64,000 nucleotides of DNA from Vulcanimicrobiota bacterium (GTDB taxonomy: Bacteria; Vulcanimicrobiota; Vulcanimicrobiia; Vulcanimicrobiales; Vulcanimicrobiaceae), in NCBI GenBank assembly GCA_003164495.1, contig PLTN01000126.1, positions 60,487 to 124,486 on the forward strand, in the 5' to 3' direction. Position numbers and translations under genes: made by a program. The notes under the pieces were generated by a model, which saw nothing but the letters and a program-made list of their open reading frames with translations, was not told the origin of the DNA and did no database searches. This document shows, one piece after another, positions 3,208-21,236 of the stretch (within the stretch, counting starts at the first letter, position 1; every line of letters starts with the position of its first letter).

Positions 3208-4203
3208 GTGCGTCGGTTGTCTATCGATCGAACTGAGCGAAAGGCGCGCTACTCCAGCCAAACCCTGGTCGTACGGCGTTCCGCTCTTGCCGTCATTGCC
3301 GGCGCTTGTACCGCGCCGCTTCTTGGACGCAGCGCGATTGGTCAAGAGCAGACGTTACGACTTGCGACCGCGCCGCTCGATGTCAGCGCCGAGCCATACT
3401 ACGCCCTGGAGATGGGCTTTTTTAAGCGTGCCGGGCTTGGCAACATTACGTTGCAAACGATCCCAACCGGGGCGGCGATGACGGCCGCCGTCGCGGGCGG
3501 CGCAATCGACATTGCAATCTCCAACATCGTATCCGTCGCGCAAGCGCATCAGCGGAACGTTCCCTTCACGCTTGTTGCACCCGCCGGGCTCTATTCGTCG
3601 AGTGCTCCGACGTCGATTCTCATGGTCGCTAAAGACTCACCCCTCCGCACCGCCACCGACCTAAACGGCAAAACGCTCGGCGCAAGCGGCCTGCGAGGCA
3701 TCGCGCAATTCGCACCAATGGCTTGGATCGATCAGCACGGAGGCTCATCGGCCACCGTCAAATTCGTCGAAATGAGCTCACCGGAGATCATCGATGCGGT
3801 TTCAGCCGGACGCGTCGACGGCGGTCTGATCATCGAACCGTTCATCGCCGAGGCGAGAAAGACCATGCGCACCTTCGCAAATGTCTTCGATGCGATTGCA
3901 CCCGCGTTCTTGATTTCGGCGCATTTCGCAAACCTCGACTGGGCGAGGGCCCACACCGATATCGTTCGGCGCTATCAGAATGCCATTCTCGAAACAGCGG
4001 CTTGGGCGAACAAGAATCGAGCGCAAACGGCGTCGATCCTGATCAAGGCCGCCAACCTTCAGGAAGACGTGGTCCGAACCATGACCCGGATTGAATACGC
4101 AAACAAAATATCGCCCGAGCTCGTCCAACCGGTCATTGATACCACAGCCAAGTATACCGGCGTACCGTCGTTCAAGGCCTCGGAAATCATTTTCTCGGCT
4201 TAA
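3208..4203 (+). CDS. ABC transporter substrate-binding protein, NMT1/SsuA-like
   Basis: A periplasmic type-2 binding protein of the NMT1/THI5-SsuA-TauA group, about 331 residues. After a basic N terminus and a signal segment (residues about 25-45, ending near S-A-I-G-Q), the mature protein has the group's hallmarks: A-E-P-Y-Y-A-x-E-M-G-F-F near residue 62, a Gly/Ala-rich G-G-A-I-D-I-A-I-S-N motif, the hinge D-L-N-G-K-T-L-G, and the C-terminal F-K-A-S-E-I-I-F shared with other binding proteins here. The GTG at 3208 sits only 1 nt after an AGAGG; the TTG at 3217 has that site about 10 nt upstream and may be the real start. No permease adjoins it; a strong terminator follows. The ligand is unknown. 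Confidence 0.85.
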   Translation: MRRLSIDRTERKARYSSQTLVVRRSALAVIAGACTAPLLGRSAIGQEQTLRLATAPLDVSAEPYYALEMGFFKRAGLGNITLQTIPTGAAMTAAVAGGAIDIAISNIVSVAQAHQRNVPFTLVAPAGLYSSSAPTSILMVAKDSPLRTATDLNGKTLGASGLRGIAQFAPMAWIDQHGGSSATVKFVEMSSPEIIDAVSAGRVDGGLIIEPFIAEARKTMRTFANVFDAIAPAFLISAHFANLDWARAHTDIVRRYQNAILETAAWANKNRAQTASILIKAANLQEDVVRTMTRIEYANKISPELVQPVIDTTAKYTGVPSFKASEIIFSA

Positions 4204-4968: not shown

Positions 4969-5943
4969 GTGCGCAGACCATCCGAATCCAGCGTCGGGCG
5001 ATCGACACTAAAGCGGTCGGCAGCCCTCTCATTGTTCGCCGCAAGCATTGCCGGTGTCGCACCGCTGCGTGCTCAAACCACACTCGCACCACTGAGAATC
5101 GCGACGCCCGGGGGCGACGCGTTTGCCGAGCCGTTCTTTGGCACGGACGGCGGTTTCTTTGCAAAGGCGGGCTTCGACCCGCAGATCTCCATTCTCAACA
5201 ACGCCGGCGCAGTGCTTGCCGCCGTTGCCGGGGGAGCCGTTGATATTGGGCTCGGGGACATCGTCGGGATTGCCGACGCCATTGAGAACGGCATTCCGCT
5301 GGTCGTGTTTGCCGGCGGTGGACTCTACTCAGGTAGCGATCCCACGACGGTATTCTGCGTGGATAAGAACTCGCCGCTGACGTCGGCGCAAGATCTCAAT
5401 GGCAAAACCGTGGCGGTCGTTACGCTGGTCGGTCTGGCGGCCGCGTCAACGAAGGCATGGCTATCGAACAACGGCGCAGACATCAGCACCATCAAGGTCA
5501 TCGAGATGCCGCAACAGGAAATGCGAGCTGCGCTCCAGCGTGGCACCATTGCCGCAGCGACGATCTCAGAGCCGTTCCTCAGTAATGCAAAAAACGACGT
5601 GCGCGCCTTCGGGAAACCATACGACGCGGTCGCAAACCGCTTCCTGATCTCGCAGTGGATTACCACGCGCTCTTGGCTCGCCAATAACGCTGCCGGTGCG
5701 AAGCGCATCACTGCCGCGATTTACGACACCGCGAGATGGGCGAACGCACATCACGACGCGTCACTCCCGATCCTCGTAAAGTACCTCAAAGTCGACCCGG
5801 AGCTGATGCGCGGTATTCGGCGCGTGGACTTCTCCACCGTGCTCGGGCCGACGCTGATGCAGCCGGCCATCGATGTCGGGGTCAAATACAAACTGATCCC
5901 CAAACCCCTCGATGCCGCGACCGTGATCGCCAACCCGACATAA
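4969..5943 (+). CDS. ABC transporter substrate-binding protein, NMT1/SsuA-like
   Basis: A 324-residue exported binding protein. The GTG start has a strong GGAGGG at 4957-4962, six bases upstream. The signal segment ends near P-L-R-A-Q. Family hallmarks follow: A-E-P-F-F-G-T-D-G-G-F-F-A-K-A-G-F, L-N-N-A-G-A-V-L-A-A-V-A-G-G, D-L-N-G-K-T-V-A-V and T-A-R-W-A-N-A-H-H-D. The L-N-N-A-G block is shared with the protein at 44164-45129, so these two belong to one subclade and may bind related ligands. It stands alone and is transcribed away from the Thr-rich secreted protein. No transporter subunits adjoin it. The ligand is unknown; family members bind sulfonates, nitriles, pyrimidine precursors or aromatic acids. 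Confidence 0.87.
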   Translation: MRRPSESSVGRSTLKRSAALSLFAASIAGVAPLRAQTTLAPLRIATPGGDAFAEPFFGTDGGFFAKAGFDPQISILNNAGAVLAAVAGGAVDIGLGDIVGIADAIENGIPLVVFAGGGLYSGSDPTTVFCVDKNSPLTSAQDLNGKTVAVVTLVGLAAASTKAWLSNNGADISTIKVIEMPQQEMRAALQRGTIAAATISEPFLSNAKNDVRAFGKPYDAVANRFLISQWITTRSWLANNAAGAKRITAAIYDTARWANAHHDASLPILVKYLKVDPELMRGIRRVDFSTVLGPTLMQPAIDVGVKYKLIPKPLDAATVIANPT

Positions 5944-6836: not shown

Positions 6837-7592
6837 TCATGGGGAGCAGGGGCCCGCGCCGCCACCACCACCGCCGCCGCCGCCGAGCAGTGCGATTCCA
6901 CCGGCGATCGCACCGGCAGCCGCGACGATCTCACCGATCGGACTGTGACCGCTTCCCGCTGATGACGCCGGCGCCTCGGCGAGCGCGGCAGGCTGCGATT
7001 CGGGAGCGACCACTGCGGTCGCCGCCGGTGCAACCGGCACCGCTGCCGGTGTCAAGGGTGAGGGCGAGGTCGAGGTCGGCATCACGATTGCGGCAACCGT
7101 CTTCGTCTTTGCAGGATGCGACGCGACGGCGACAGCGCGTGCGCGACGCACGTATGATAAATTACCGCACGCTGCGGGCAAATAGACCGCTAGCGTCGTG
7201 TGTCGCTGCTTGAGGTCGACTTCCCAGCCACGCACCTGGGGCGGAATCTTGACGTCGCGGATCACATAGACGTGTTTGCCGGAGCGCCACGTCATCACGG
7301 TCAGGTGCCGAGGCACCGTCACCCATTGCACGTGAGAGGTCGCGATCGCCTGATTCAGTTGTTCGAACTGAGCGGCTGTGAGACCGGACTTCAGAGCTGC
7401 TTGGCGCAGAATCGATTGATTTTGTTCGACGTGCTCGCGCATCATCGCGGTAGACGAACTCGGCCCAAGGAGCGGCGCCGTGCCGAGCTGCCGGATTACC
7501 GTCGTCCTGCCGTACGCCGGCAGAACGCATCCGGCTAGAAAGACCACCACAGTGGCTGCGCGCATTGCAGGCGAGCGTAACGGTAACAACAT
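6837..7592 (-). CDS. Exported Gly-rich-tail protein of unknown function
   Basis: About 251 residues from an ATG at 7592; an in-frame TTG at 7646 would add 18, and the ATG at 7565 would trim 9. A signal segment (V-V-V-F-L-A-G-C-V-L-P-A-Y-G) is clear. A globular region follows with a short helix pair (residues about 50-80) and a beta-rich stretch with V-Q-W-V-T-V-P-R. The second half is Ala/Pro/Thr/Ser-rich, and the C terminus is a hydrophobic A-G-A-I-A-G-G-I-A-L-L segment followed by nine Gly and P-C-S-P. The hydrophobic-plus-Gly tail could be a membrane or sorting tail. The poly-Gly is encoded by a GGN-repeat tract prone to slippage. No family recognised. Confidence 0.6.
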   Translation of the reverse strand: MLLPLRSPAMRAATVVVFLAGCVLPAYGRTTVIRQLGTAPLLGPSSSTAMMREHVEQNQSILRQAALKSGLTAAQFEQLNQAIATSHVQWVTVPRHLTVMTWRSGKHVYVIRDVKIPPQVRGWEVDLKQRHTTLAVYLPAACGNLSYVRRARAVAVASHPAKTKTVAAIVMPTSTSPSPLTPAAVPVAPAATAVVAPESQPAALAEAPASSAGSGHSPIGEIVAAAGAIAGGIALLGGGGGGGGGAGPCSP

Positions 7593-7741
7593 GGAAGTAT
7601 TGTACCGCCCCGGCGCCGATCCACTAGGGACCGAGCGCGCGTGCAACGGGGACTTCCGGCTGCCATGGATTACGGATTGTTAAGGCGCGGGACGCTCGTC
7701 CCTATTGCGCACGGCTGCAGCCTCACGAGACGCCGGCCAAA

Positions 7742-7755
7742 AGAAGATATCTTCT
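7742..7755. promoter_or_regulatory. Perfect 14-bp palindrome upstream of the short RiPP-like ORF
   Basis: AGAAGATATCTTCT is fully self-complementary and lies 43 bases before the TTG of the 40-residue ORF at 7799. It could be a regulator binding site. A weak promoter-like pair (CTGATA at 7754-7759 and TACTAT at 7777-7782, 17-nt spacing) overlaps it, but its implied transcription start would fall in the ribosome binding site, so the promoter reading is doubtful. Confidence 0.35.
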
Positions 7756-7798
7756 GATACGTAGCATCGACCTCAATACTATTCTCGGGAGAATCGCT

Positions 7799-7921
7799 TT
7801 GGAACAACCAGACCGGCCGGCATACGAAAAGCCGGAAATCATAGAAACCTTCGAAATGTCGGAAGTTCTCGGAACTGCCGAAGGTTTGGACTACGGAACG
7901 GGCTCGCACTGCACCGGGTAG
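7799..7921 (+). CDS. Short peptide with a RiPP leader-like motif
   Basis: A 40-codon frame starting at TTG 7799, with GGGAGA at 7787-7792 giving an ideal Shine-Dalgarno spacing of six bases; it ends TAG 7919-7921, eight bases before the convergent stop of the barrel gene. The product begins (M)EQPDRPA, then Y-E-K-P-E-I-I-E at residues 9-16, an acidic E-M-S-E-V-L-G-T-A-E stretch, and a C terminus G-L-D-Y-G-T-G-S-H-C-T-G. Known: lasso and related RiPP precursors carry a leader motif Y-x-x-P-x-[LI] recognised by RRE/PqqD-like proteins. Inference: a leader of about 25-29 residues and a short Gly/Ser/Thr/Cys-containing core. No lasso cyclase, RRE protein or radical SAM enzyme is visible in the window, so the maturation class is open. 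Confidence 0.5.
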   Translation: MEQPDRPAYEKPEIIETFEMSEVLGTAEGLDYGTGSHCTG

Positions 7922-7929
7922 TCGATCGA

Positions 7930-8715
7930 CTACGGGCTTGCGGGACGCGGAAACGTGTAATACAGCCCGAAGTAGCCGATGGCGTGACTCTGACCGGCGA
8001 CGCTATGGCCGAGGCTGACGAGAATATTGAATTGGCTCGACGGGCTGATGGTGCCGCCGATGTTGTAGAACGTCGTCGCCGTTGTACCAACAGCGCTCGC
8101 TCCTTGCGTATAAATCTCGGTTCCGAGCGTCAACCCCGAGCCGAGCGATCGCTGTACGAGGAGACCGCCGAAGCCGTAGTTGCGTTGACCGGGCGCATGG
8201 TTGATTGCCGCCCCCCCGCCGGTGTCGACGGTCCACTTGCCGCCGCCGTAGCTCTTTTGAATCCATATCGGAAGCCGGTACCACGTCTGGCCATTTCCGA
8301 GATTCCGCGCCGCGTTGCCGGTCGCGACTTCGGCCATCGGAAAAAAGCCGACTTGCGGTCGACCCGCGGACTCCTGAACGAAACGATATTTGATGCCGAC
8401 CTCCGTGTCGCCGAAGCCGAATGCGTTCGGCATCCCCGGTACGGTGGCGTTCTCGAACGGCGCGACAACGTGAAATTGGAGATTGGGCAAGAAGCCCCAG
8501 TTGAACTCGACGGCCGGCCCGTCAACCGTTGAACCCGCCCCGGGCGCGTTGTCCCATTGTGAGAAAACATACGTTTCAAAGTGGCCGAGATCGACCGGCA
8601 CCGGATCGTCCGTTAGGAACGGTGGACCAGCTATCGAAGCGGCCGGCCGGAGAAAAACCAACACGACGGCTGCGATCGCAGCGAATCGTCGATATAGCCG
8701 CCGGCTAGGGTGCAT
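7930..8715 (-). CDS. Outer-membrane beta-barrel protein, phenol-degradation MetA-like
   Basis: A 261-residue exported protein. Residues 1-30 form a signal peptide. The mature part begins P-P-F-L-T-D-D-P-V-P-V-D-L-G-H, typical of the outer-membrane transporter group annotated as MetA-pathway of phenol degradation (PF13557-like). It continues with alternating amphipathic strands (F-N-W-G-F-L-P-N-L-Q-F, G-D-T-E-V-G-I-K-Y-R-F) and ends in an aromatic strand (Y-F-G-L-Y-Y-T-F-P) close to the C terminus, as outer-membrane barrels do. It supports a diderm cell. Its start overlaps the end of the upstream binding-protein gene by 11 nt, so it probably lies in one operon with that gene and the acyl-CoA-dehydrogenase-like hydroxylase: an uptake-and-oxidation set. 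Substrate unknown. Confidence 0.75.
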   Translation of the reverse strand: MHPSRRLYRRFAAIAAVVLVFLRPAASIAGPPFLTDDPVPVDLGHFETYVFSQWDNAPGAGSTVDGPAVEFNWGFLPNLQFHVVAPFENATVPGMPNAFGFGDTEVGIKYRFVQESAGRPQVGFFPMAEVATGNAARNLGNGQTWYRLPIWIQKSYGGGKWTVDTGGGAAINHAPGQRNYGFGGLLVQRSLGSGLTLGTEIYTQGASAVGTTATTFYNIGGTISPSSQFNILVSLGHSVAGQSHAIGYFGLYYTFPRPASP

Positions 8716-9652
8716 AAATCAGTTCCTGCGCGGGGAACGAGCTGAACCCGTTATATTGCGCGGTAGCGTCGATCAACGGCTGCATCAACGCCGGCGTGAG
8801 TTGATCGGTAAAGCGCACGCGGGTCATGGTAGCGATCACCGCGGGATCGATCTTGAGGTAGCCGGCGAGGATAGCCCCGCTCGCCTGCGGATTATTGTTC
8901 GCCCAGGCCGCCGTGTCGCGCATCGCGGCGGCAAAGCGATTCACGAGAAGCGCATGATCTTTTGCCCATTGCGGGGTGCTGCACCAGCCGGTCGTGATGA
9001 AGCGTTTGGCAATGCTATCGAATCCATACGCGAGGACGCGACCGTTCTTCTTGGCCTCGCCGATGAACGGCTCGGCCACCTCAGCCGCGTCGACGCGATT
9101 AGCGCCGAGCGCCGTGGCCATCGCCGAAGACGGAATTTCCACGAACTTGACCGTCGACGCATCGCCGCCGTTCTTATCCATCCACGTCCGTACGGCGGTG
9201 TGCGTAAGGCTGTTGAGGGAGATCACCGCAACGACCTTGCCGTTGAGGTCCTGCGCCTTCTGAACCGTTGAGTTTGCCGGCACCAACAGCGCCGCGTTTT
9301 GCGTCGTGAACGGAGAGCGATACTCCGTCCCCGGCGCGAGCGCGACCAGCTGCACGCCTTTGCGATGGATCGCTGCTAAGGCATCAATCGCCAGAAAGCC
9401 GATATCGATCGCGCCCGAAACCAGCGCTGCTGCAATCGCCGAGCCGCCCTGCATCGGCTCGATGTCGGCGTCGATCCCCGCCTTTGCGAAGAATCCCTTG
9501 TCCTTTGCAAAGTAGACCTCCGCGCCAGGCTCGATCGGGATCGTAGCGATGCGCACCGTCTGAGATTGCGCGTCGCCGCGCGAACCGCCAAGGCTGAGTG
9601 CCGTGCCGCCGAATATCAACGCCGACGCGTGGGCGCGAGTGATCTTCCTCAA
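8705..9652 (-). CDS. ABC transporter substrate-binding protein, NMT1/SsuA-like
   Basis: About 315 residues. The best start is a TTG at 9652: it overlaps the stop of the hydroxylase gene (TTGA, 4 nt shared), has GAAGGGA a few bases upstream and leaves a proper signal peptide (L-R-K-I-T-R followed by a hydrophobic stretch, cleavage near D-A-Q). The open frame reaches back to 9757, but those residues are Arg-rich and unlike a signal. Hallmarks: A-E-V-Y-F-A-K-D-K-G-F-F-A-K-A-G-I-D, D-L-N-G-K-V-V-A-V, A-V-R-T-W-M-D-K-N-G-G-D and the C-terminal F-P-A-Q-E-L-I-Y. It is a close paralogue of the protein at 15436-16383, which is likewise coupled to a flavin-dependent oxygenase-type gene. Ligand unknown; an aromatic compound is a reasonable guess. 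Confidence 0.87.
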   Translation of the reverse strand: MRKITRAHASALIFGGTALSLGGSRGDAQSQTVRIATIPIEPGAEVYFAKDKGFFAKAGIDADIEPMQGGSAIAAALVSGAIDIGFLAIDALAAIHRKGVQLVALAPGTEYRSPFTTQNAALLVPANSTVQKAQDLNGKVVAVISLNSLTHTAVRTWMDKNGGDASTVKFVEIPSSAMATALGANRVDAAEVAEPFIGEAKKNGRVLAYGFDSIAKRFITTGWCSTPQWAKDHALLVNRFAAAMRDTAAWANNNPQASGAILAGYLKIDPAVIATMTRVRFTDQLTPALMQPLIDATAQYNGFSSFPAQELIYAP

Positions 9653-10869
9653 TACGTTCCCTTCGGCTCGAGACCCAGCAAGTGTTGACCGGTCATCGTG
9701 CTGACCGCGTCCCAATTCAGCGCAATATGCTTCGAAACGGCGTGGATGTCGCGCCACGCGCGCTGAACGGCGTTATCGAGGTAGAGACCGCGCCCGCCCG
9801 TCGACTCGTAGAGCGCGTCCGCGGCCTGAACGGCCAGACGAACCGCAAAAGCGTGATTTCGGCGATTGCGGATGCGCATGTCGACGCTAACGCTTTCGCC
9901 GCTTCTCACCGTGGCGAGCAATTCGTTGCAATCGCGATAGAGCAGCAGTTTCGCGGCGTCGAGGCAGGCTGTCGCTTCGGCCATGCGCGATTGCACCGCA
10001 GCGTAGTCCGCAACGCGGTTCCCGGCACCACCGGCCGCACCGCGCGTGAGCTGTTTGCTAATGGAGGCCAGCGCATCGTCGATCGCCCCCTGCACTATCC
10101 CGAACCCGGGCGCGGCGAGCGCGCACGGCATGCCGGCCATGAACGAGACCTTGTAGATCGGGTTTGCGTGCGCGCGCGTGCCCGGTGCGCTCCCGGACAC
10201 CGCCTGGGGGAAGGTGAGCTTGCGGTGACCTGGGACGAACACGTCGCTGATGACGATCGTCTTGCTGCCCGTACCGCACAGGCCGCTGGCATACCAGTCG
10301 TCCTCGAGCGTGTAATCCGTCGACGGCACGAGCAGGAGGCCGCGCGTGGGCGCGGTCTCGTCCTTGCCGGGCGGGAACATCACGCCGATGACGGACCACC
10401 TCGAGTGATCGACTCCGCTTGAAAACGACCACTTGCCGGCTGGAATGCGGTATCCGCCCTTCTCCGGCTGCGCGATGCCCTGTGGTGCGTAGGAGCCGGT
10501 GATGATGCCGTCCGGATCGTCGGCCCAAACGTCGAGCTGCGCCTCGAGCGGAAAGAGTGAAAGCAGCCAGCGATGGATGATCCCGAGACCACAGAGCCAG
10601 GCGGACGAGCCGCAACCGCGTCCGACCTCCGCGAGCACGTCCATCATCGTGATGAAGTCGTACTCGAACCCGCCGAAGCGTGCCGGCGCCAGCGTCCGGA
10701 AGAACTCCGCTTCGCGAAACAGCGCGAGCGTCTCGGCCGAGATCCGACGTTGTCGTTCAGCCTCGAGTGCGCGTTCGCGCAGATACGGAACCATCGCCCG
10801 AGCGCGTGCCACGAGCTCGCCGGGCTCAACCCTCGGGCGTGCGGGCGTAATCGGGATTGCGTTACTCAC
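9649..10869 (-). CDS. Acyl-CoA dehydrogenase-like flavin monooxygenase (HsaA/HpaB-group)
   Basis: About 406 residues from a GTG at 10869, with GGAGG just upstream (reverse of 10873-10880); the frame extends to 11019, but that leader is Arg-rich. The protein has the acyl-CoA dehydrogenase fold as used by two-component flavin hydroxylases: an N-terminal helical domain with F-R-T-L-A-P-A-R-F-G-G-F, the A-E-V-G-R-G-C-G-S-S-A-W motif, a middle beta-domain (G-K-W-S-F-S-S-G) and a C-terminal helical domain ending W-R-D-I-H-A-V-S-K-H-I-A-L-N. Relatives such as HsaA and 4-hydroxyphenylacetate or indole hydroxylases use FADH2 from a partner reductase to hydroxylate aromatics. No reductase gene is adjacent. 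It is first in a three-gene leftward operon with a binding protein and an outer-membrane barrel. Confidence 0.8.
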   Translation of the reverse strand: MSNAIPITPARPRVEPGELVARARAMVPYLRERALEAERQRRISAETLALFREAEFFRTLAPARFGGFEYDFITMMDVLAEVGRGCGSSAWLCGLGIIHRWLLSLFPLEAQLDVWADDPDGIITGSYAPQGIAQPEKGGYRIPAGKWSFSSGVDHSRWSVIGVMFPPGKDETAPTRGLLLVPSTDYTLEDDWYASGLCGTGSKTIVISDVFVPGHRKLTFPQAVSGSAPGTRAHANPIYKVSFMAGMPCALAAPGFGIVQGAIDDALASISKQLTRGAAGGAGNRVADYAAVQSRMAEATACLDAAKLLLYRDCNELLATVRSGESVSVDMRIRNRRNHAFAVRLAVQAADALYESTGGRGLYLDNAVQRAWRDIHAVSKHIALNWDAVSTMTGQHLLGLEPKGTY

Positions 10870-14279: not shown

Positions 14280-15439
14280 ATCCATTCGATCTTGTACGCG
14301 TGCTGCTCCGGATGGAGCATTTTCTGCAGGGCGAGGCGGAGGTCGCGTGCGATCCGCGCCGCGAGTGACGGGGTTTGATTGACGCGCGCGACCTTGCGCG
14401 ACATCAGCTGAACGCGCGACGCGCGCGGTAAGCGCGCGGCCTGGTACCGGCGCAACGCGCGGAGGGGATCGTCGCTGTCTTTCGCGAGCTCGTTCGCCAG
14501 CACGTAGCCGTCTTCGATTGCCATGCAACCACCCTGCGCGAGGTAGGGCATCATCGGATGCGCCGCATCGCCGAGGAGTGCGATGCGGCCGTCGACCCAA
14601 CGCGGCAGCGGGTCGCGGTCGAACAGCGCCCACTTATAGCAGCGGTCGGTCTTGGAGACGAGCTCGGCGACAATCGGGCACCAACCCTCGTAGAGCCGGA
14701 GAATGTCGGCGGCATCGGCTTCAGAGCTCCACGACTCTTGCTGCCATGACGTCTCCTCCGCCAGCGCAACCCAATTCACCAACTCGCCGCGACGGATATA
14801 GTAGTACACGAAGCTCGCATGCGGACCGATGTACACCGAAACGTCGCCGGTCAGCAAGCCCGGCGGCAAAGCCTCGGCCTTCGCGACCCCGCGGTACGCA
14901 ACGGTACCGGTGAAGCGCGGCGAATCCTTGCCGAGCAGATGTTCGCGAATCGCGGAGTGGATGCCGTCCGCACCCACGACCACGTCGCTCTCAACGCTCG
15001 AGCCGTCCTCGAAATGCAGGGTGGCCTTCGCCGTGCCGTTCGCGACGCTCTTGCTCTTCTTCCCGAGCCGCAACACGCCGGCCGGTAACCGGGACGCAAG
15101 GAGGCTCTGCAGATCGGCCCGCAGCAGCGTGTGATAACCGATCCCGTATTGCGTCTCGTACACGCCCTTCATCTGCGTTGTCGCGATCGTGGCACCCGTC
15201 TTGCCGCTGCGCACCACGTGCGCTTCGGGCACGAACGAGAGGTCGGCAATAGCGCGATCCAAACCCAGCGCCGCGTACACGCGCATCGCATTCGGGCCGA
15301 GCTGCACGCCGGCACCCACTTCGCGCAGTTCGCTCGACTGCTCGAAGACCGTCACTTCGAAGCCGCGGTCGATCAACGCCAGCGCAGCGGTCAAGCCGCC
15401 GAGACCGGCACCGACGACCGCAACGCTATGCGTCGTCAT
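14255..15439 (-). CDS. FAD-dependent aromatic monooxygenase (salicylate/3-hydroxybenzoate hydroxylase-like)
   Basis: A 394-residue group A flavoprotein monooxygenase. The N terminus has the FAD dinucleotide-binding G-A-G-L-G-G (residues 10-15). G-A-D-G-I-H-S near 157-162 is the D-G motif for FAD/NADPH. G-D-A-A-H-P-M-M-P-Y (290 onward) contacts the FAD ribityl chain, and G-Q-G-type binding is represented by A-Q-G-G. Length and order fit salicylate 1-hydroxylase and 3-hydroxybenzoate 6-hydroxylase, which hydroxylate (and may decarboxylate) monohydroxybenzoates with NAD(P)H. Its ATG overlaps the stop of the upstream binding-protein gene (ATGA), so enzyme and binding protein are translationally coupled; the binding protein may recognise the aromatic substrate. 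Confidence 0.88.
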   Translation of the reverse strand: MTTHSVAVVGAGLGGLTAALALIDRGFEVTVFEQSSELREVGAGVQLGPNAMRVYAALGLDRAIADLSFVPEAHVVRSGKTGATIATTQMKGVYETQYGIGYHTLLRADLQSLLASRLPAGVLRLGKKSKSVANGTAKATLHFEDGSSVESDVVVGADGIHSAIREHLLGKDSPRFTGTVAYRGVAKAEALPPGLLTGDVSVYIGPHASFVYYYIRRGELVNWVALAEETSWQQESWSSEADAADILRLYEGWCPIVAELVSKTDRCYKWALFDRDPLPRWVDGRIALLGDAAHPMMPYLAQGGCMAIEDGYVLANELAKDSDDPLRALRRYQAARLPRASRVQLMSRKVARVNQTPSLAARIARDLRLALQKMLHPEQHAYKIEWIYGFDVTR

Positions 15440-16383
15440 GCTTTGGGCGCGGTGTAGATCAGCTCTTGGGCCGGGAACGTCGCGTACCCGTTGTACTTTG
15501 CCGAGATATCGATCAACGGCTGCATCGATGCGGCCGTGAGCGTCTCAGCGTAGACCGAGCGCGTCATCGTCGCGAGGACCGCGGGATCCATCTTCGTGTA
15601 CTTCGCTACGATCTGCGCGCTCGGCGCCGGGTTTTTATTGGCCCAAATCGCCGTCTCGTGCATGGCCGCGGCGAAACGCGCCACGGTATCGCGGTGATCG
15701 CCGGCCCACTGGGGCGTCGTGAACCACGCTCCGATGAGAAAGCGCTTCGCGATCGCATCGAAGCCGTACTCGATCGCCCGGCTGTCCTTGGTTGCCGCGC
15801 TCAGAAACGGCTCGGCATCCCACGCGGCATCGACGTGACCGGTTTGCAGTGCCGGAAGCATCGCCGGAAACGGGATCTCGACGAACTTCGCAGTTGACGA
15901 ATCGCCGCCGTTCTTGTCCATCCACGCGCGCGCCGTCGTCTCCGAAATGCTGTGCAGGTTGGAAACGGCGATGATCTTGCCGTTCAGGTCTTTGGCCTGG
16001 CGCACGGAGGAATTCGCCGCTAACACGAGGCCGGCGTTACGCGACGGGGAGATGTATTCGTTTGCCGGCGCAATCGCGACCACGGGGACGTTCTTCTGAT
16101 GGATCGTGGCCAGCGAGTCGACCGGACTGTAACCGATGTCGATCGCGTTCGATGCCGCCGCCGCCACCATCGCCGCGCTGGCTTGCATCGTCTGGATGTC
16201 GGCGTCGAGGCCTGCCTTCGCGAAGAAGCCCATATCCTTGGCGTAGAACACCTCGGCCGCCGATTCAATCGGCAAGGTGGCGATCCGGATCGGTATGAGC
16301 GTTTGCGCACGCCCGCGAGCCGAACTCACGAGCACCGATGCGGCGCCGACGAGCACGGCGGCGGCCTGAGCGCGAGTCATCAT
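15436..16383 (-). CDS. ABC transporter substrate-binding protein, NMT1/SsuA-like
   Basis: A 315-residue exported protein with a signal segment (A-A-A-V-L-V-G-A-A-S-V-L-V, cleavage near R-A-Q). Hallmarks: A-E-V-F-Y-A-K-D-M-G-F-F-A-K-A-G-L-D, D-L-N-G-K-I-I-A-V, T-A-R-A-W-M-D-K-N-G-G-D-S-S-T, F-V-E-I-P-F-P-A-M and the C-terminal F-P-A-Q-E-L-I-Y. It is the closest relative in the window of the protein at 8705-9652; both are tied to oxygenase genes. It precedes the FAD monooxygenase with a 4-nt overlap. No permease nearby. A two-hairpin repeat lies about 50 bases upstream of the start. Confidence 0.88.
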   Translation of the reverse strand: MMTRAQAAAVLVGAASVLVSSARGRAQTLIPIRIATLPIESAAEVFYAKDMGFFAKAGLDADIQTMQASAAMVAAAASNAIDIGYSPVDSLATIHQKNVPVVAIAPANEYISPSRNAGLVLAANSSVRQAKDLNGKIIAVSNLHSISETTARAWMDKNGGDSSTAKFVEIPFPAMLPALQTGHVDAAWDAEPFLSAATKDSRAIEYGFDAIAKRFLIGAWFTTPQWAGDHRDTVARFAAAMHETAIWANKNPAPSAQIVAKYTKMDPAVLATMTRSVYAETLTAASMQPLIDISAKYNGYATFPAQELIYTAPKA

Positions 16384-16430
16384 AACCGACGGACTTGCTC
16401 CACCCCGCCGGTAACCCCTGTGGTACGAAG

Positions 16431-16483
16431 GGCGGCTTGGGCGCAGCCCAAACGCGACGGATTCACGGAACGTGAATCCACTA
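16431..16483 (-). repeat. Two-hairpin dispersed repeat, copy 1
   Basis: Read on the minus strand, this is TAG, then a hairpin with arms GGATTCACG and CGTGAATCC around TTC, the spacer GTCGCGT, and a second hairpin with arms TTGGGC and GCCCAA around TGC, ending GCCGCC. The same unit recurs at 42807, 57015, 59290 and 63969. Unlike most copies it does not follow a same-strand gene end; it lies between the divergent binding-protein (16383) and VOC (16543) genes. Confidence 0.85.
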
Positions 16484-16542
16484 GGGGTGTTCCGCGACGG
16501 GCGCCAATCGGGAGAGGAAGTTCCCGCCCGCCAGGAGATGCC

Positions 16543-17088
16543 GTGAATTCAGCAGTCGATGAACGTTCGCCCGACGCCGCACCGCTCGGACCGGTTCCGC
16601 TGGGAAAGTGCGATCACGTGAGCGTCCCATGCCGCGATCTCGACGAGGCGCTCTGCTTCTTCATCGACGTGCTCGGCGGCGAGTTACGCGTCAAGACGCC
16701 GATCTTCGCCGAAGTCCGGCTCGGCGGCACGCTGATCGGATTCGGCGCGCAGGGAACCACGTTCATGGAACCCAGTACGGAGTACCCGCACATCGGGTTC
16801 GTCGTCGGGCCGGACGAGCTCGCCCGCATGAAAGCCTGGCTCGCGCAATGCGGCATTCCGTCGTCGAACTACTGGACGCGCTTCGGCGCCGAAGCGCTGA
16901 TGTTTTTCCGCGATCCGTCGGGCAACGTGTTCGAGCTGCTCTGCCCGAAGGGATTTCCCAACGCCGAGACGTTCCCGCGCGGTCCGGCCGCCGGACACGG
17001 CACGGCCGTGGACATCGATGCGATTCGCTATGATACGTGGAAGCGGCCGGAACGTCAGGGCTCGCGCCGGCCGGTACCGGACGCCTAG
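16543..17088 (+). CDS. VOC (glyoxalase/dioxygenase fold) protein
   Basis: About 181 residues from a GTG at 16543 with AGGAGA at 16533-16538; the frame is open further upstream, but that stretch overlaps the opposite binding-protein gene. One vicinal-oxygen-chelate module: K-C-D-H-V-S-V-P-C-R-D-L-D-E-A-L at the N terminus, F-I-D-V-L-G-G-E, then P-H-I-G-F-V-V and F-F-R-D-P-S-G-N-V-F-E-L in the second beta-alpha-beta-beta-beta unit. His in D-H and Glu in F-E-L are candidate metal ligands, as in glyoxalase I and extradiol dioxygenases. The reaction is not predictable. Its stop overlaps the convergent binding-protein gene by 4 nt. Confidence 0.8.
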   Translation: MNSAVDERSPDAAPLGPVPLGKCDHVSVPCRDLDEALCFFIDVLGGELRVKTPIFAEVRLGGTLIGFGAQGTTFMEPSTEYPHIGFVVGPDELARMKAWLAQCGIPSSNYWTRFGAEALMFFRDPSGNVFELLCPKGFPNAETFPRGPAAGHGTAVDIDAIRYDTWKRPERQGSRRPVPDA

Positions 17089-18029
17089 TTCCCGATCATC
17101 TCGCTTGCGGAGAAACCGCGGGCGAGTACCTTGTATTTCACGGCGGAGTCGATGATCGGCTGAAGCAGCGAGGCGTTCAGCGTCGTTCCTGACGGCGTGC
17201 GTGTCATGTGCTGGATCACATCGAGCGGGATCGAGGTGAACTGCGCGACCATGGCTGCCGTTTGCGCGTGATGGCTGTTCGTGTACTCCGCCGCTTCGGC
17301 CAGGATGCGCGCGAACTGCCGCGCGACGTCGGCGTGATCGTGCACCCATGCCTTGGTGGAAAACCAAGCGGCAAACAAATACTGGGGTGCTATCGCATCG
17401 TAGGCGCCGGGCAGCGCCCGCAACTGGCCGTCAGCCAGAGCGTTATCGACGACCGGCGCAACGAACGCGGCCGCGTCGATCCGCCCGCTCTTGAGCGCCG
17501 CGACGCCGGCGGTCATCGGCAGTTCGATGAACTTCAGGGTGGTGGGATCGCCGCCGTGCGCGCTCACCCATGCATCCGTCGCAACCTGGTTCATGTCGTT
17601 GAGCGATTGCACGCCGATCAGCTTGCCCTCGAGGTCTTTCCCCGTCTTTATCGGGGAATCGGCGCGTACGAGGAGCGCGGCGAACTTATCTCTTCCGTTC
17701 CAGACCGACGCCGGCGCGACGATCGTGATCGGCAAATCGTGTGCGTGCGCGTTGATCAATGGAACGATGCTCGACTTGCCGATGTCGAACGTCCCCGCCA
17801 TCACCGCCGCCGTCACGGCCGCTCCGCTGGATTGCAGCTGCAACTCGACGTCGATCCCGGCCTTCGCGAACATCCCGGTACTCTGCGCGTAGAGCAACGG
17901 GGTTGCCGCATCGTCGTTCGCAACGAGTCCGACGCGCAGGACCACCGGCGTTTGTGCCCCGCCCGGTGCCGCCCCGGCAGTGAACAGCGCGAGCGACAGC
18001 AGCGAGCCGGCGACCAGGCGCACGATCAT
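17085..18029 (-). CDS. ABC transporter substrate-binding protein, NMT1/SsuA-like
   Basis: A 314-residue exported protein; the ATG at 18029 overlaps the stop of the VOC gene (ATGA), and the signal segment V-A-G-S-L-L-S-L-A-L-F-T-A-G-A follows at once. Hallmarks: P-L-L-Y-A-Q-S-T-G-M-F-A-K-A-G-I-D, G-T-F-D-I-G-K-S-S, D-L-E-G-K-L-I-G-V, A-W-V-S-A-H-G-G-D-P and the C-terminal F-S-A-S-E-M-I. The G-K-S-S and N-A-H-A-H-D segments link it to the protein at 34661-35614. It is the last gene of the long leftward gene series that starts at 32496. Ligand unknown. Confidence 0.87.
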   Translation of the reverse strand: MIVRLVAGSLLSLALFTAGAAPGGAQTPVVLRVGLVANDDAATPLLYAQSTGMFAKAGIDVELQLQSSGAAVTAAVMAGTFDIGKSSIVPLINAHAHDLPITIVAPASVWNGRDKFAALLVRADSPIKTGKDLEGKLIGVQSLNDMNQVATDAWVSAHGGDPTTLKFIELPMTAGVAALKSGRIDAAAFVAPVVDNALADGQLRALPGAYDAIAPQYLFAAWFSTKAWVHDHADVARQFARILAEAAEYTNSHHAQTAAMVAQFTSIPLDVIQHMTRTPSGTTLNASLLQPIIDSAVKYKVLARGFSASEMIGN

Positions 18030-18835
18030 GCCGGCGCCGGCGCTACTGATAGAATGATGCCGTCGACGTCGGTGAAGTGTTCCGTGCAAAGGGGACAGCT
18101 GCGCTGCGCCAGATCGAGGCGCGCACGCCCTTCGCTGCCTTGGCCGAAGGGAATCGGCGCCAGCCGCGGGTTATCGCCGACGATCCGCGCCAGATCCGAG
18201 CGGAACGTCTCCAGGCTCTCCACGGTAAAGCCGATGTGATCGGGCGCCGGCGAGACGATGCCCGTGCCGTCGTAATCGCCGATGTGCCACGGCATGACGA
18301 CGACCGTCACGTGGCCGTCCGACACGTAGAAATTCGGATCGCCCGGTCGCTGCTCGAGCGTGAAGCCGAACATCTGCGCGTAGAACGTCGCCGTCGCTTC
18401 GGCATGCAGCGTGCGCAAGCCGAGGTGCGAGATGTGGCGCTTGGTGAGCGGGTTGTCTTCCGCATAGAGATACTTTTGCGTACCCCCGCGGCGCTGCGAG
18501 AGATCGAACACGTTGCCTGCCGGATCGTGGGTGGTCGTTGCGGCGAACGGCCGGGTCGGCGGCCGCTTGAGCCATTCGACTTCCGGATAGGCACCGCGCA
18601 TGCGCTCGAGCGCGTTCTCGATGTCATCGACCTCGATGCCGAAGTGGTCGAGCCGGGCGGGTCGGCCCGCTTTGCGCGGATTGATGTTGAGCCCGACGTA
18701 GCCGTCGCCGACCGTTACCGCGCGTTGCGTCGGCGCACCGGCCGCCGTTCGCAGTCCGAACAGCGACTCATAGAACAGCGCCGAGACCGCATAGTTCTCG
18801 CTGATGATCGCGATGTGGTTCAGCTTGGCAGTCAT
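18026..18835 (-). CDS. Two-domain VOC protein (extradiol dioxygenase-like)
   Basis: A 269-residue cytoplasmic protein of two vicinal-oxygen-chelate modules. Module 1 begins L-N-H-I-A-I-I-S-E-N-Y and contains L-D-H-F-G-I-E-V-D-D-I and H-D-P-A-G-N-V-F-D-L-S; module 2 begins I-S-H-L-G-L-R-T-L and contains P-D-H-I-G-F-T-V-E-S. The repeated H-(I/L)-x-(I/L/F) positions and paired modules match type I extradiol dioxygenases and glyoxalase/bleomycin-resistance proteins. Module 2 ends with a short Cys-containing strand (C-P-L-C). It sits between two binding-protein genes (11 nt after the upstream stop, 4-nt overlap with the downstream start). A ring-cleavage role would suit the Rieske dioxygenase further upstream in the same gene series, but that is inference. 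Confidence 0.78.
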   Translation of the reverse strand: MTAKLNHIAIISENYAVSALFYESLFGLRTAAGAPTQRAVTVGDGYVGLNINPRKAGRPARLDHFGIEVDDIENALERMRGAYPEVEWLKRPPTRPFAATTTHDPAGNVFDLSQRRGGTQKYLYAEDNPLTKRHISHLGLRTLHAEATATFYAQMFGFTLEQRPGDPNFYVSDGHVTVVVMPWHIGDYDGTGIVSPAPDHIGFTVESLETFRSDLARIVGDNPRLAPIPFGQGSEGRARLDLAQRSCPLCTEHFTDVDGIILSVAPAPA

Positions 18836-18846
18836 CGCGAACTCCT

Positions 18847-19830
18847 CTAGCGGCGACCGAGCGGGACGCTCGGCGCCAAGAGTCCCGTGACGTCGAAGCC
18901 CTTGTCCATGATGCCGTACTTCAGCGCGAAGTCGAGCGGCCGCTGAAGATCGGCGAGCGTGATGGACTCGGCTGTGATCGAGCGGACGCCATGGCCGACT
19001 TGGGCCGCGTCTTGGCCCGTAAAGGCCGCCACGAGGTCGGTTGTTTCCGATTGATGCGCGTTCGTATACTTGGCCGATTCCGTCATCGCTTGCGCGAAGC
19101 CGGTTGCCACGGCCGGGTTCTTCGTGATGAAATCGACCGACGCGACCCACGCCGATACGAGGAAACGCGGTCCGATCGCATCGAGCGGCTTGCCCAGCAG
19201 CCGGAACTTCCCCGAGTCCATCGCAATCGTGACGAAGGGCGTCTTGAACACCGCAGCGTCGATGCGCCCGGACTCGAGCGCGCCGGCCTGCTCCGACGGT
19301 TTCAACTCGACCGGTTTGAGCGAGCTGCCGTCGCCGCCGTGTTGATCGACCCACGCGCGCGTCGCAACGGAATAGAGATCCTTGATGGCATCGACGCCGA
19401 TCGTTTTCCCATTCAGATCGCGCCCCGAACGGATCGGTGAGTCCTTCTGGACGAGCAAGAGCGCGTCGGCATTTGCGCTCGTGTACAGCGACGCCGGCGC
19501 AATGATACGCAGCGGAAGGCCGCGCGAGTAGGCGGCAAAGACCGGGAAGAGGCTGCCCGAACCGATGTCGGCGGCGCCGCCGACGACGGCGGCGAAGATC
19601 GCAGCGCCGCTGCCCATCGAAACGACGCTGGCGTTGATGCCGTGCTTGCGAAACAGGTTCGCCTTCTGCGCGTACAGCAGCGATTTCACGCCGTCGGTCG
19701 GAACCGCGAGCACGTTGACGGTCTTCAGATCGTCGGCCGAAGCCGGACCGCAAGCCGAGACCACCCCGCCCAGCGACGCGAGCGCCCCGAGCTTGATGAA
19801 ATCGCCGCGGTCGAGATTACCTGTGCTCAT
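18847..19830 (-). CDS. ABC transporter substrate-binding lipoprotein, NMT1/SsuA-like
   Basis: A 327-residue binding protein whose ATG (19830) overlaps the stop of the TAXI-like gene (ATGA). Unlike its paralogues it has a lipobox: the hydrophobic segment ends V-V-S-A-C-G near residue 27, so it is probably membrane-anchored. Hallmarks: S-L-L-Y-A-Q-K-A-N-L-F-R-K-H-G-I, G-G-A-A-D-I-G-S-G-S, D-L-N-G-K-T-I-G-V, A-W-V-D-Q-H-G-G-D-G. It ends P-L-G-R-R instead of the shared A-x-E-L-I tail. It lies between a cytoplasmic-looking TAXI-type protein and a VOC protein inside the long leftward operon. Ligand unknown. Confidence 0.86.
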   Translation of the reverse strand: MSTGNLDRGDFIKLGALASLGGVVSACGPASADDLKTVNVLAVPTDGVKSLLYAQKANLFRKHGINASVVSMGSGAAIFAAVVGGAADIGSGSLFPVFAAYSRGLPLRIIAPASLYTSANADALLLVQKDSPIRSGRDLNGKTIGVDAIKDLYSVATRAWVDQHGGDGSSLKPVELKPSEQAGALESGRIDAAVFKTPFVTIAMDSGKFRLLGKPLDAIGPRFLVSAWVASVDFITKNPAVATGFAQAMTESAKYTNAHQSETTDLVAAFTGQDAAQVGHGVRSITAESITLADLQRPLDFALKYGIMDKGFDVTGLLAPSVPLGRR

Positions 19831-21236
19831 GCCTCGCCTTTTCCTGAGAGAACGTCGAGTTGCAACTTCCGAGCTTCCGCAGCCGCGGAGAACGCTGCAA
19901 CGATATCCGCCGGCGTCTCCGACCGGCAAACCAGTTCGAAATCGCCCACCCCGGCAATGCTGCGCAAGGGCAGCGCCGAGGCAAACGGTTTGGCGACGAT
20001 CGCCAGATCGGCGCGTCCTTCAGCCACGGCCGTGAGCGACGTCTGAGGTTCGCCCGCCAGAATCGTCGCAAACCACACGTCGAAATCTTGCGTTTGCTGC
20101 CGCATCTGGATACGCGTCGAAAACGCATCCGTTGCAGCGCTCTCGGCGCGCGCGAGGACTTCCGATGCGATCTCCAGCGTCAGCATCGAGCGGATCCGCG
20201 GCGGACGCTCAGGCGGCTCGCGGCGCGGATGGATCTGCCCCTTCGCCTTCAGCGGCTCGGTGCTGTAACCGCGTTCGCGCCAATACCGTTCCGCCGCCGG
20301 GTGCAGCGGCACGTCGAGCGGGCCGTCGGGTGTGTCGCGACACATGTCCGCGATCGGCAGCGGGCCCGATCCTTCCCACGGGATGTCGTCGCGGCGCAGG
20401 TCCAATCCCGCGCAGATGCTCGTGACCAACGCATCCGGCGCATCCGATCGCACGAAGATGGCAAAGCCGCTGAAGTCGATCGTCTCGACGTCGCCCTCGA
20501 GCAAGGGGTACGTCGCCTTCTCGAGGACGTTGCGGCGAAAGCCGATCTTTTCCAAGTTGCGCACGGTCGCCGCTCCGAGCGGAAGGGCTTTCATGCCGAT
20601 CTCCAGCGCCCCGTCGAGCCAGCGGCAAATGGCCTCATCGAAGATCGCGTTGATCGTGCCGTTTTGCGCCATCTCCAGGCGCGCGGGCGAGTCGAAGCCC
20701 GATTTCGTCGGCGAATCGAAACCCGGTTCGTAGTGGATCGAACCGCCCCAGCTCTCGAGTTCCTTCACCGAGAACCCGGCGGCCGCCAACACGCAGTCGA
20801 GCACCGAGTGAATCGAGTGGCTGCGTTGGCCGCGCAGCGAAATGCGTAGCGGAAAGCGCCGATCGCGTACGTCTTCGAGGCTCGTCAAGCCCGTGTCCGC
20901 CGTGACGACGAACGCAAACAGATCGTACGACGGGTTGACCGCGATCGCGCGTACCGGTTGAGGTTCGCGAAACGGACCCGTGCCGCGGTGGGCCAGCGTC
21001 AGCATAACCGATGGGTTGACGAGCGCCATCGCGGCGCGGCGCTCGACGACATCCTCGATCCCTTCCGGATTATCGCTGGCGAAGAGGTCGAGCGGTGCAT
21101 CGCCCCCGCCGGCACCGGCGATGGTGAGCTTCACTTGCCAGAAGCGGCGATCGTTGCTGAGGGCAAGCCCCTTCGCAATTTCCAGCGCGACCGCTGCGCG
21201 CCGTTTGGCGCCGGCGATTTGGGATGCGGCCGGCAT
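19827..21236 (-). CDS. TAXI/NMT1-like binding-fold protein without signal peptide, with extra C-terminal lobe
   Basis: A 469-residue protein. Residues about 15-330 look like a TAXI-family TRAP solute-binding protein: L-E-I-A-K-G-L-A-L near 19, A-A-M-A-L-V-N-P-S near 70, Y-D-L-F-A-F-V-V near 105, then L-R-I-S-L-R-G-Q-R-S and G-T-I-N-A-I-F-D-E. There is no signal peptide, lipobox or membrane segment, so it should be cytoplasmic. Residues about 350-469 begin again with L-E-I-A-S-E-V-L-A-R, followed by an A-V-A-E-G-R-A-D-L-A-I-V pattern, like a second copy of the first lobe. Its start and the LivJ-like gene's stop share one base (TAATG), and its stop overlaps the next start (ATGA). A ligand-sensing or enzymatic role is possible (compare the NMT1/THI5 enzyme fold), but unproved. 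Confidence 0.6.
   Translation of the reverse strand: MPAASQIAGAKRRAAVALEIAKGLALSNDRRFWQVKLTIAGAGGGDAPLDLFASDNPEGIEDVVERRAAMALVNPSVMLTLAHRGTGPFREPQPVRAIAVNPSYDLFAFVVTADTGLTSLEDVRDRRFPLRISLRGQRSHSIHSVLDCVLAAAGFSVKELESWGGSIHYEPGFDSPTKSGFDSPARLEMAQNGTINAIFDEAICRWLDGALEIGMKALPLGAATVRNLEKIGFRRNVLEKATYPLLEGDVETIDFSGFAIFVRSDAPDALVTSICAGLDLRRDDIPWEGSGPLPIADMCRDTPDGPLDVPLHPAAERYWRERGYSTEPLKAKGQIHPRREPPERPPRIRSMLTLEIASEVLARAESAATDAFSTRIQMRQQTQDFDVWFATILAGEPQTSLTAVAEGRADLAIVAKPFASALPLRSIAGVGDFELVCRSETPADIVAAFSAAAEARKLQLDVLSGKGEA

Follow-up and report, generated by a model that had tools for sequence, protein, structure and literature searches.

The window analysed here, a stretch of 64,000 nucleotides, corresponds to positions 60487-124486 of contig C217 in its assembly (G000; 84% complete, 7% contamination). 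At 7799-7921 on the plus strand it contains a small ORF whose translation is (L/M)EQPDRPAYEKPEIIETFEMSEVLGTAEGLDYGTGSHCTG*. As the original prediction had described, the ORF starts with TTG and is preceded by GGGAGA at a 6-nt spacing, it carries Y-E-K-P-E-I near residue 9 (Y9-E-K-P12-E-I14), and it lies in a gap between two minus-strand genes, which we found as ORFs at 6837-7646 and 7930-8715. The features of the locus are as follows.

7742..7755, no strand: perfect 14-bp palindrome AGAAGATATCTTCT, showing no sign of any relevance
7787..7792, plus strand: Shine-Dalgarno sequence GGGAGA, 6 nt from the TTG, read from the sequence and paralleled by purine-rich sites at a like distance before the paralogues
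7799..7921, plus strand: predicted orphan RiPP precursor gene, 40 aa, TTG start and TAG stop, based on its translation, four paralogues and the leader dN/dS
7799..7897, plus strand: predicted leader, residues 1-33, if cut at G33/T34-G-S36; conserved part of the paralogue alignment
7823..7840, plus strand: Y-E-K-P-E-I, predicted RRE-binding motif YxxPx[IV]; Y and P invariant in 31 aligned precursors
from 7886, plus strand: alternative predicted core LDYGTGSHCTG
7898..7918, plus strand: predicted core TGSHCTG; variable part of the precursor family, and analogous to LppA in its Ser3

The YxxP motif by itself is not significant in the window ORF: such a motif near the N terminus occurred in 4 of the 523 eligible short ORFs in the window, against 1.1 expected in first-order random sequence, and no Pfam or NCBIfam model matched the peptide. 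The ORF stands above chance because of its family of paralogues and homologues and its codon pattern. A sequence search found four further copies in the same genome, on contigs C177 (two), C82 and C77, nearly full length and at E-values of 1e-5 to 3e-3. A profile built from the first homologues recovered exactly the five G000 copies at E 7e-19 or better, with the next match at 0.5; its seed held all five copies, so that good scores were expected for three of the five. The copies have in common MEQ, Y[ED]xPx[IV][IL][ED]TF[ED], EV[ML] and AEG. Their N termini (TTGGAACAA in three copies and ATGGAACAA in two) support the TTG start of the window copy, and a purine-rich Shine-Dalgarno sequence precedes every paralogue start. 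The tails read LDYGTGSHCTG in the window copy, SIAIGNGSQTPA in the C77 copy, FAVGNGSQTVD in the C82 copy, and LIVIGQGSQAAG and GTVIGNGSQVAY in the two C177 copies.

Of the five copies, that of the window has diverged furthest, with 13-15 of 28 leader residues in common with the others. Its leader gave a dN/dS of 0.13-0.29 against the paralogues, a value that rests on a small codon count with synonymous sites near saturation; the codon differences from each paralogue numbered 15-17 at the third codon position and 6-9 at each of the first two. Both the purifying constraint on leader codons and the homologous short ORFs with a conserved leader and variable core, which the original prediction had proposed as checks, were thus found, the latter in G000 and in related genomes. 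Judged by its sequence and its relatives, the window ORF is a real gene. Its tail had been described as a composition signal, rich in Gly, Thr, Ser, His and Cys; that description was incomplete, as the tail also bears the G-x-G-S motif of the family. The Ser36 column was invariant in alignment A1, and Ser36 is the predicted phospho-acceptor by analogy with Ser3 of LppA (PMC13381572). The leader may end instead after A-E-G29 (position 7885); both cleavage sites are putative.

The upstream DNA of the window copy has little in common with that of the other copies. The perfect 14-bp palindrome pointed out earlier does exist, but the significance attached to it did not hold: the window has 17 perfect palindromes of at least 14 bp, and none of the other four copies has AGAAGATATCTTCT upstream. 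A regulatory palindrome was therefore rejected. Rfam gave no match upstream of the window ORF, and around the copies none even at E up to 1, so that a riboswitch or other known RNA was likewise rejected; no promoter or terminator consensus was found close to the window ORF. A short GGGACC/GGGACT stretch aligned upstream of all five copies (in the window, approximately 170 nt ahead of the start codon) in DNA that has otherwise diverged, and it is either a promoter element or an accident of alignment. The left neighbour (6837-7646, minus strand) has a lipoprotein-like N terminus, a long glycine run and a terminal AGPCSP, and it had no Pfam match. Genes for SsuA/TauA-like solute-binding proteins are greatly expanded in the window (3208-4203, 4969-5943, 8705-9757, 15436-16383, 17085-18089 and 18847-19929), and for one of them (around 8716-9645) about 40 matches at the DNA level were found genome-wide. 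The orthologue of the right neighbour is present in the same-genus genome G001 in a different context, so that no empty site could be read there for an insertion or loss.

A profile search of 117 genomes of the class revealed credible precursors in 17, that is, in 16 besides G000. The usual form is MYxxPx[IV][IL]A[TS]xDAxxVLxEAxG followed by a variable tail. All 31 aligned precursors of the class have the Y and the P, and 19 of them, including all five G000 copies, have G-x-[GAS]-S, which is missing in the other 12. The Gly of G/x[GAS]S ends an A-x-G in many precursors; a small-x-small pattern is usual for signal peptidase sites. Weak profile matches in seven genomes (G098, G099, G112, G052, G033, G122 and G129) were discarded, as their E-values exceeded 0.02 and most fell within longer frames. 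Solitary copies also occur in G070 (three) and G023 (one), and one copy in G076 lies on a 3.6-kb contig that is too short to judge. The precursors of G070 and G076 (L071-L076), which belong to the second family of the class, all have a tail Cys, mostly within the last few residues (AGCD, AKCP, GYGCVP, HGCQ), and this Cys is mostly missing from precursors of the window's family of the class. Two divergent YxxP peptides are encoded ahead of an RRE gene in G061 and G062, which are order-level relatives; the tails of these peptides (AFQSTYVNFNDPILDFEN and AAAAASFGSPGSG; L176:5470-5704 and L177:6024-6260) are conserved between the two genomes, whereas the leaders vary.

A genome-wide search placed no RRE, fusion enzyme or B2 protease on the contigs of four of the five G000 copies, that of the window included. 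The nearest enzyme set found is on another contig, C77, and hence at least about 68 kb from the window ORF. On the side of the C77 precursor, the cluster comprises an FkbM methyltransferase, the precursor, two HprK-like kinases (TIGR04352 matches below the cut-off), a signal-peptidase/NTP_transf_5 fusion and a PqqD-type RRE. In locus L023 the two kinases span 14466-15272 and 15266-16222, the fusion 16219-17793 and this RRE about 17782-18050 (minus strand). On the other side are an ABC-2 exporter (a PF01061 permease with a separate ATPase), a second RRE, a third HprK-like protein, a glycosyltransferase, a lasso-B2-like protease (NF033537 above the cut-off) and a stand-alone NTP_transf_5; PF14907, the NTP transferase model, was matched above its cut-off twice on this contig, and PF05402 gave an RRE match of 45 bits there. 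The RRE/PqqD proteins that the original prediction had suggested seeking were thus present in the genome, one of them beside a paralogue. The contigs have a GC content of 61-65% and a tetranucleotide r of 0.62-0.76 to the window; since relatives of the class score alike, composition is no proof that the contigs belong together. A better argument is their common paralogue family and common repertoire of solute-binding proteins.

A precursor adjoins the same enzymes, in varying order, in G020, G055, G023, G004, G070, G007, G035, G029, G133, G018, G073 and G012, and these enzyme-flanked precursors span other genera and the second family of the class. In G061/G062 and G133, the peptidase and the transferase are each encoded by a gene of their own. 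Several of the precursor clusters adjoin polysaccharide genes (sugar transferase, UDP-sugar dehydrogenase, O-antigen ligase, Poly_export). Among the 117 genomes, precursor and enzyme occurred together in 17, the enzyme only in 6, the precursor only in none and neither in 94 (Fisher p about 8e-16, which overstates independence because the genomes are related; the seed of the enzyme profile came from genomes with a precursor). All 17 precursor genomes carry the fusion enzyme or its parts; the match in G038 covers the NTP_transf_5 part only. G001, from the same genus, lacks both precursor and enzyme.

The S26 domain of the C77 fusion matched the archaeal signal peptidase model TIGR02228 below its cut-off, and Ser28, His64 and Asp79 are conserved. 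In Foldseek, the structure model of the fusion (pLDDT 84) matched the nucleotidyltransferases MenT1 and ANT(2''), and its N-terminal part matched LexA/SipA folds, with probabilities near 1 but weak E-values (best 4e-3). The kinase model (pLDDT 86) matched PEPCK and HprK/P folds, including L. casei HprK/P, at E 1e-6 to 1e-4, and G-K-T is invariant in the HprK-like kinases. The RRE profile matched the lasso RREs TfuB1 (3e-7) and TbiB1 (4e-6) as well as PqqD, and it matched LppB (9x8z) weakly (E 0.18). No match to the Asn-synthase domain of lasso cyclases (PF00733) was found in assembly G000 (84% complete).

A second cassette, consisting of an RRE of approximately 140 aa, an HprK-like protein, glycosyltransferases, a lasso-B2-like protease and a stand-alone NTP_transf_5, was observed at L023:6362-12254, L031:8186-14880, L080:2-4513 and L174:5235-9028. 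In these four genomes the cassette comes with no lasso cyclase, and a lasso-type leader protease is apparently used there without macrolactam formation. Separately, G000 may hold another RiPP locus on contig C152 (L027:8880-10973). A 596-aa protein encoded there combines a PqqD-like region with an N terminus of cyclic-nucleotide-binding-like type, and the 69-aa ORF after it looks, by eye, like a precursor of Nif11/NHLP type.

The class of Linear Polyphosphorylated Peptides (LPP) was described from Bacillota and is said to be restricted there (Popov et al. 2026, PMC13381572). Its parts are an RRE, an HprK-like kinase, a SipW-like leader peptidase that needs the RRE, an NTP transferase and an exporter, with no cyclase; the reference cluster is lppA-K-B-S-D-N of Paenibacillus alginolyticus, and LPP clusters in Bacillota adjoin polysaccharide genes (PMC13381572). 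The leader, YxxPxVLxHQxIxFETxxS, is cut after FET, phosphates are carried on core Ser3, and the YxxP motif is contacted by LppB and lasso RREs (PMC13381572). The Eremiobacterota set resembles LPP in its YxxP leader and discrete RRE, its HprK-like kinase with an HprK/PEPCK fold, its SipW/archaeal-type signal peptidase with Ser, His and Asp (encoded on C77, not on the window's contig), its NTP transferase, the lack of a macrolactam cyclase among the genes of G000 (at 84% completeness), and the setting beside polysaccharide genes in several genomes. If cleavage occurs at G/x[GAS]S, a Ser would also stand at core position 3 in 19 of the 31 Eremiobacterota precursors. In contrast to LPP, the host phylum is Eremiobacterota rather than Bacillota, the peptidase and NTP transferase are fused (except in G061/G062 and G133), there are usually two kinases, an ABC-2 permease with a separate ATPase takes the place of the MsbA-like exporter, and solitary precursors lie far from the enzymes. 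The YxxPx[IV][IL] is kept, whereas the 3' half of the leader reads xTFDAxEVLxxA instead of HQxIxFET. Since neither the HQxIxFET half nor an MsbA-like exporter was found, we refer to an LPP-like variant and not to LPP; by analogy, LPP appears to be the system closest in working to that of the window gene.

Two further systems overlap in part. The HPr-rel-A system (TIGR04352/TIGR04353 with PF14907) also has an HprK-related kinase, a PqqD-like protein and NTP_transf_5 side by side, but no signal peptidase was seen in the proteobacterial loci. The kinases scored 22-47 bits against a TIGR04352 cut-off of 200; for TIGR04353, the PqqD protein of G020 scored 35.1 against a cut-off of 35, and the C77 proteins had no match. 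A profile search within 9 kb of proteobacterial HPr-rel-A operons revealed no precursors of the window family, and our literature search on HprK with PqqD and RiPP, PF14907 and HPr-rel-A found no reports. The phosphorylated lasso peptides of the paeninodin/pseudomycoidin type (PMC8498205) have in common an RRE, an HprK-like kinase, an NTP transferase and a B2 protease; unlike them, the window system has no macrolactam cyclase in the assembly, and its acceptor is predicted near the N terminus of the core rather than at a C-terminal Ser.

We conclude that the window ORF is probably a solitary precursor of a lasso-related, cyclase-less, LPP-like RiPP system of Eremiobacterota. The earlier suggestion of an RRE-recognised RiPP precursor, perhaps not a lasso peptide, gains support from the family, the RREs and the leader constraint. 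In the proposed mechanism, the discrete PqqD-type RRE would bind Y9-x-x-P12-x-I14 of the leader, and the HprK-like kinases would phosphorylate the Ser of the core G-x-G-S. By analogy with LPP, the Ser-His(-Asp) signal-peptidase-like domain would cut after the Gly preceding xGS (...DYG / TGSHCTG), which would put the Ser at position 3 of the core. The phosphate may be decorated by the fused nucleotidyltransferase, and the ABC-2 exporter would move the product out.

Other readings account for parts of these data. It is scarcely credible that the window ORF is a chance ORF with no function: by chance, roughly one short ORF in each window should carry YxxPx[ILV], but four full-length paralogues, together with profile matches beside one enzyme set in 16 other genomes, are not explained in this way. 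The solitary position of the copy, its divergence and the poorly matching upstream DNA might instead mark a decaying, non-functional precursor. We consider this quite unlikely, given the open frame with a good ribosome site, the low leader dN/dS with its third-position excess against every paralogue, and the retention of the Y, P, A-E-G and G-x-G-S elements.

A lasso precursor, whose YxxP leader would feed a B1/B2/C pathway to a threaded macrolactam, would agree with the YxxPx[IV] leader of the window peptide, with PqqD-type RREs closest to TfuB1 and with the lasso B2-like protease of C77. However, no Asn-synthase domain was found in the assembly or recognised among the genes of the neighbouring clusters, no Asp or Glu lies 7-9 residues after the predicted core N terminus, and the leader end has no conserved penultimate Thr. 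A lasso product is thus highly improbable and, as far as the assembly shows, ruled out by the lack of a cyclase, in line with the doubt already voiced about a lasso ring. It is also unlikely, though conceivable, that the window gene serves the second cassette (here RRE, HprK, glycosyltransferase, B2 protease, stand-alone NTP_transf_5 and exporter), with the B2 cysteine protease instead of the S26 domain releasing a linear phosphoglycosylated peptide. Besides its place on C77, this cassette is found in G038, G046 and G070, in every case with no cyclase, and two precursors adjoin it in G038, where no S26-NTP5 fusion was found; the C77 precursor, however, adjoins the S26-NTP5 module instead, and precursors sit with S26-NTP5 in most genomes.

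Returning to the LPP-like reading, the enzyme genes adjoin a paralogous precursor on C77, and the window copy would therefore need processing in trans. Lone precursor genes scattered over a genome and served by one enzyme are known from the prochlorosins and synechococsins (PMC10783134), although these are lanthipeptides made by ProcM, with an unrelated leader and chemistry and far more copies. By this analogy, modification in trans would be the simplest reading of the orphan copies. Because the window copy is the most divergent, its recognition by the C77 RRE is not guaranteed. For the function of the peptide, a possible pointer is the proximity of several related clusters to polysaccharide genes, a setting also seen in Bacillota.

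Under the LPP-like reading, a RiPP class that was reported in 2026, from Bacillota alone, would extend to an uncultured phylum. The reading would make the link between leader peptidase and NTP transferase explicit in one polypeptide and give credible substrates for HprK/PqqD/NTP_transf_5 gene sets. It also suggests that precursors can be lone 40-codon genes, which are likely missed by gene callers and by cluster-centred mining. We see about an even chance that a single enzyme set modifies at least five chromosome-scattered precursors in trans, yielding a small family of linear phospho(glyco)peptides of LPP type with different cores outside Bacillota. If true, this would be a phosphorylating RiPP system with dispersed, combinatorial precursors.
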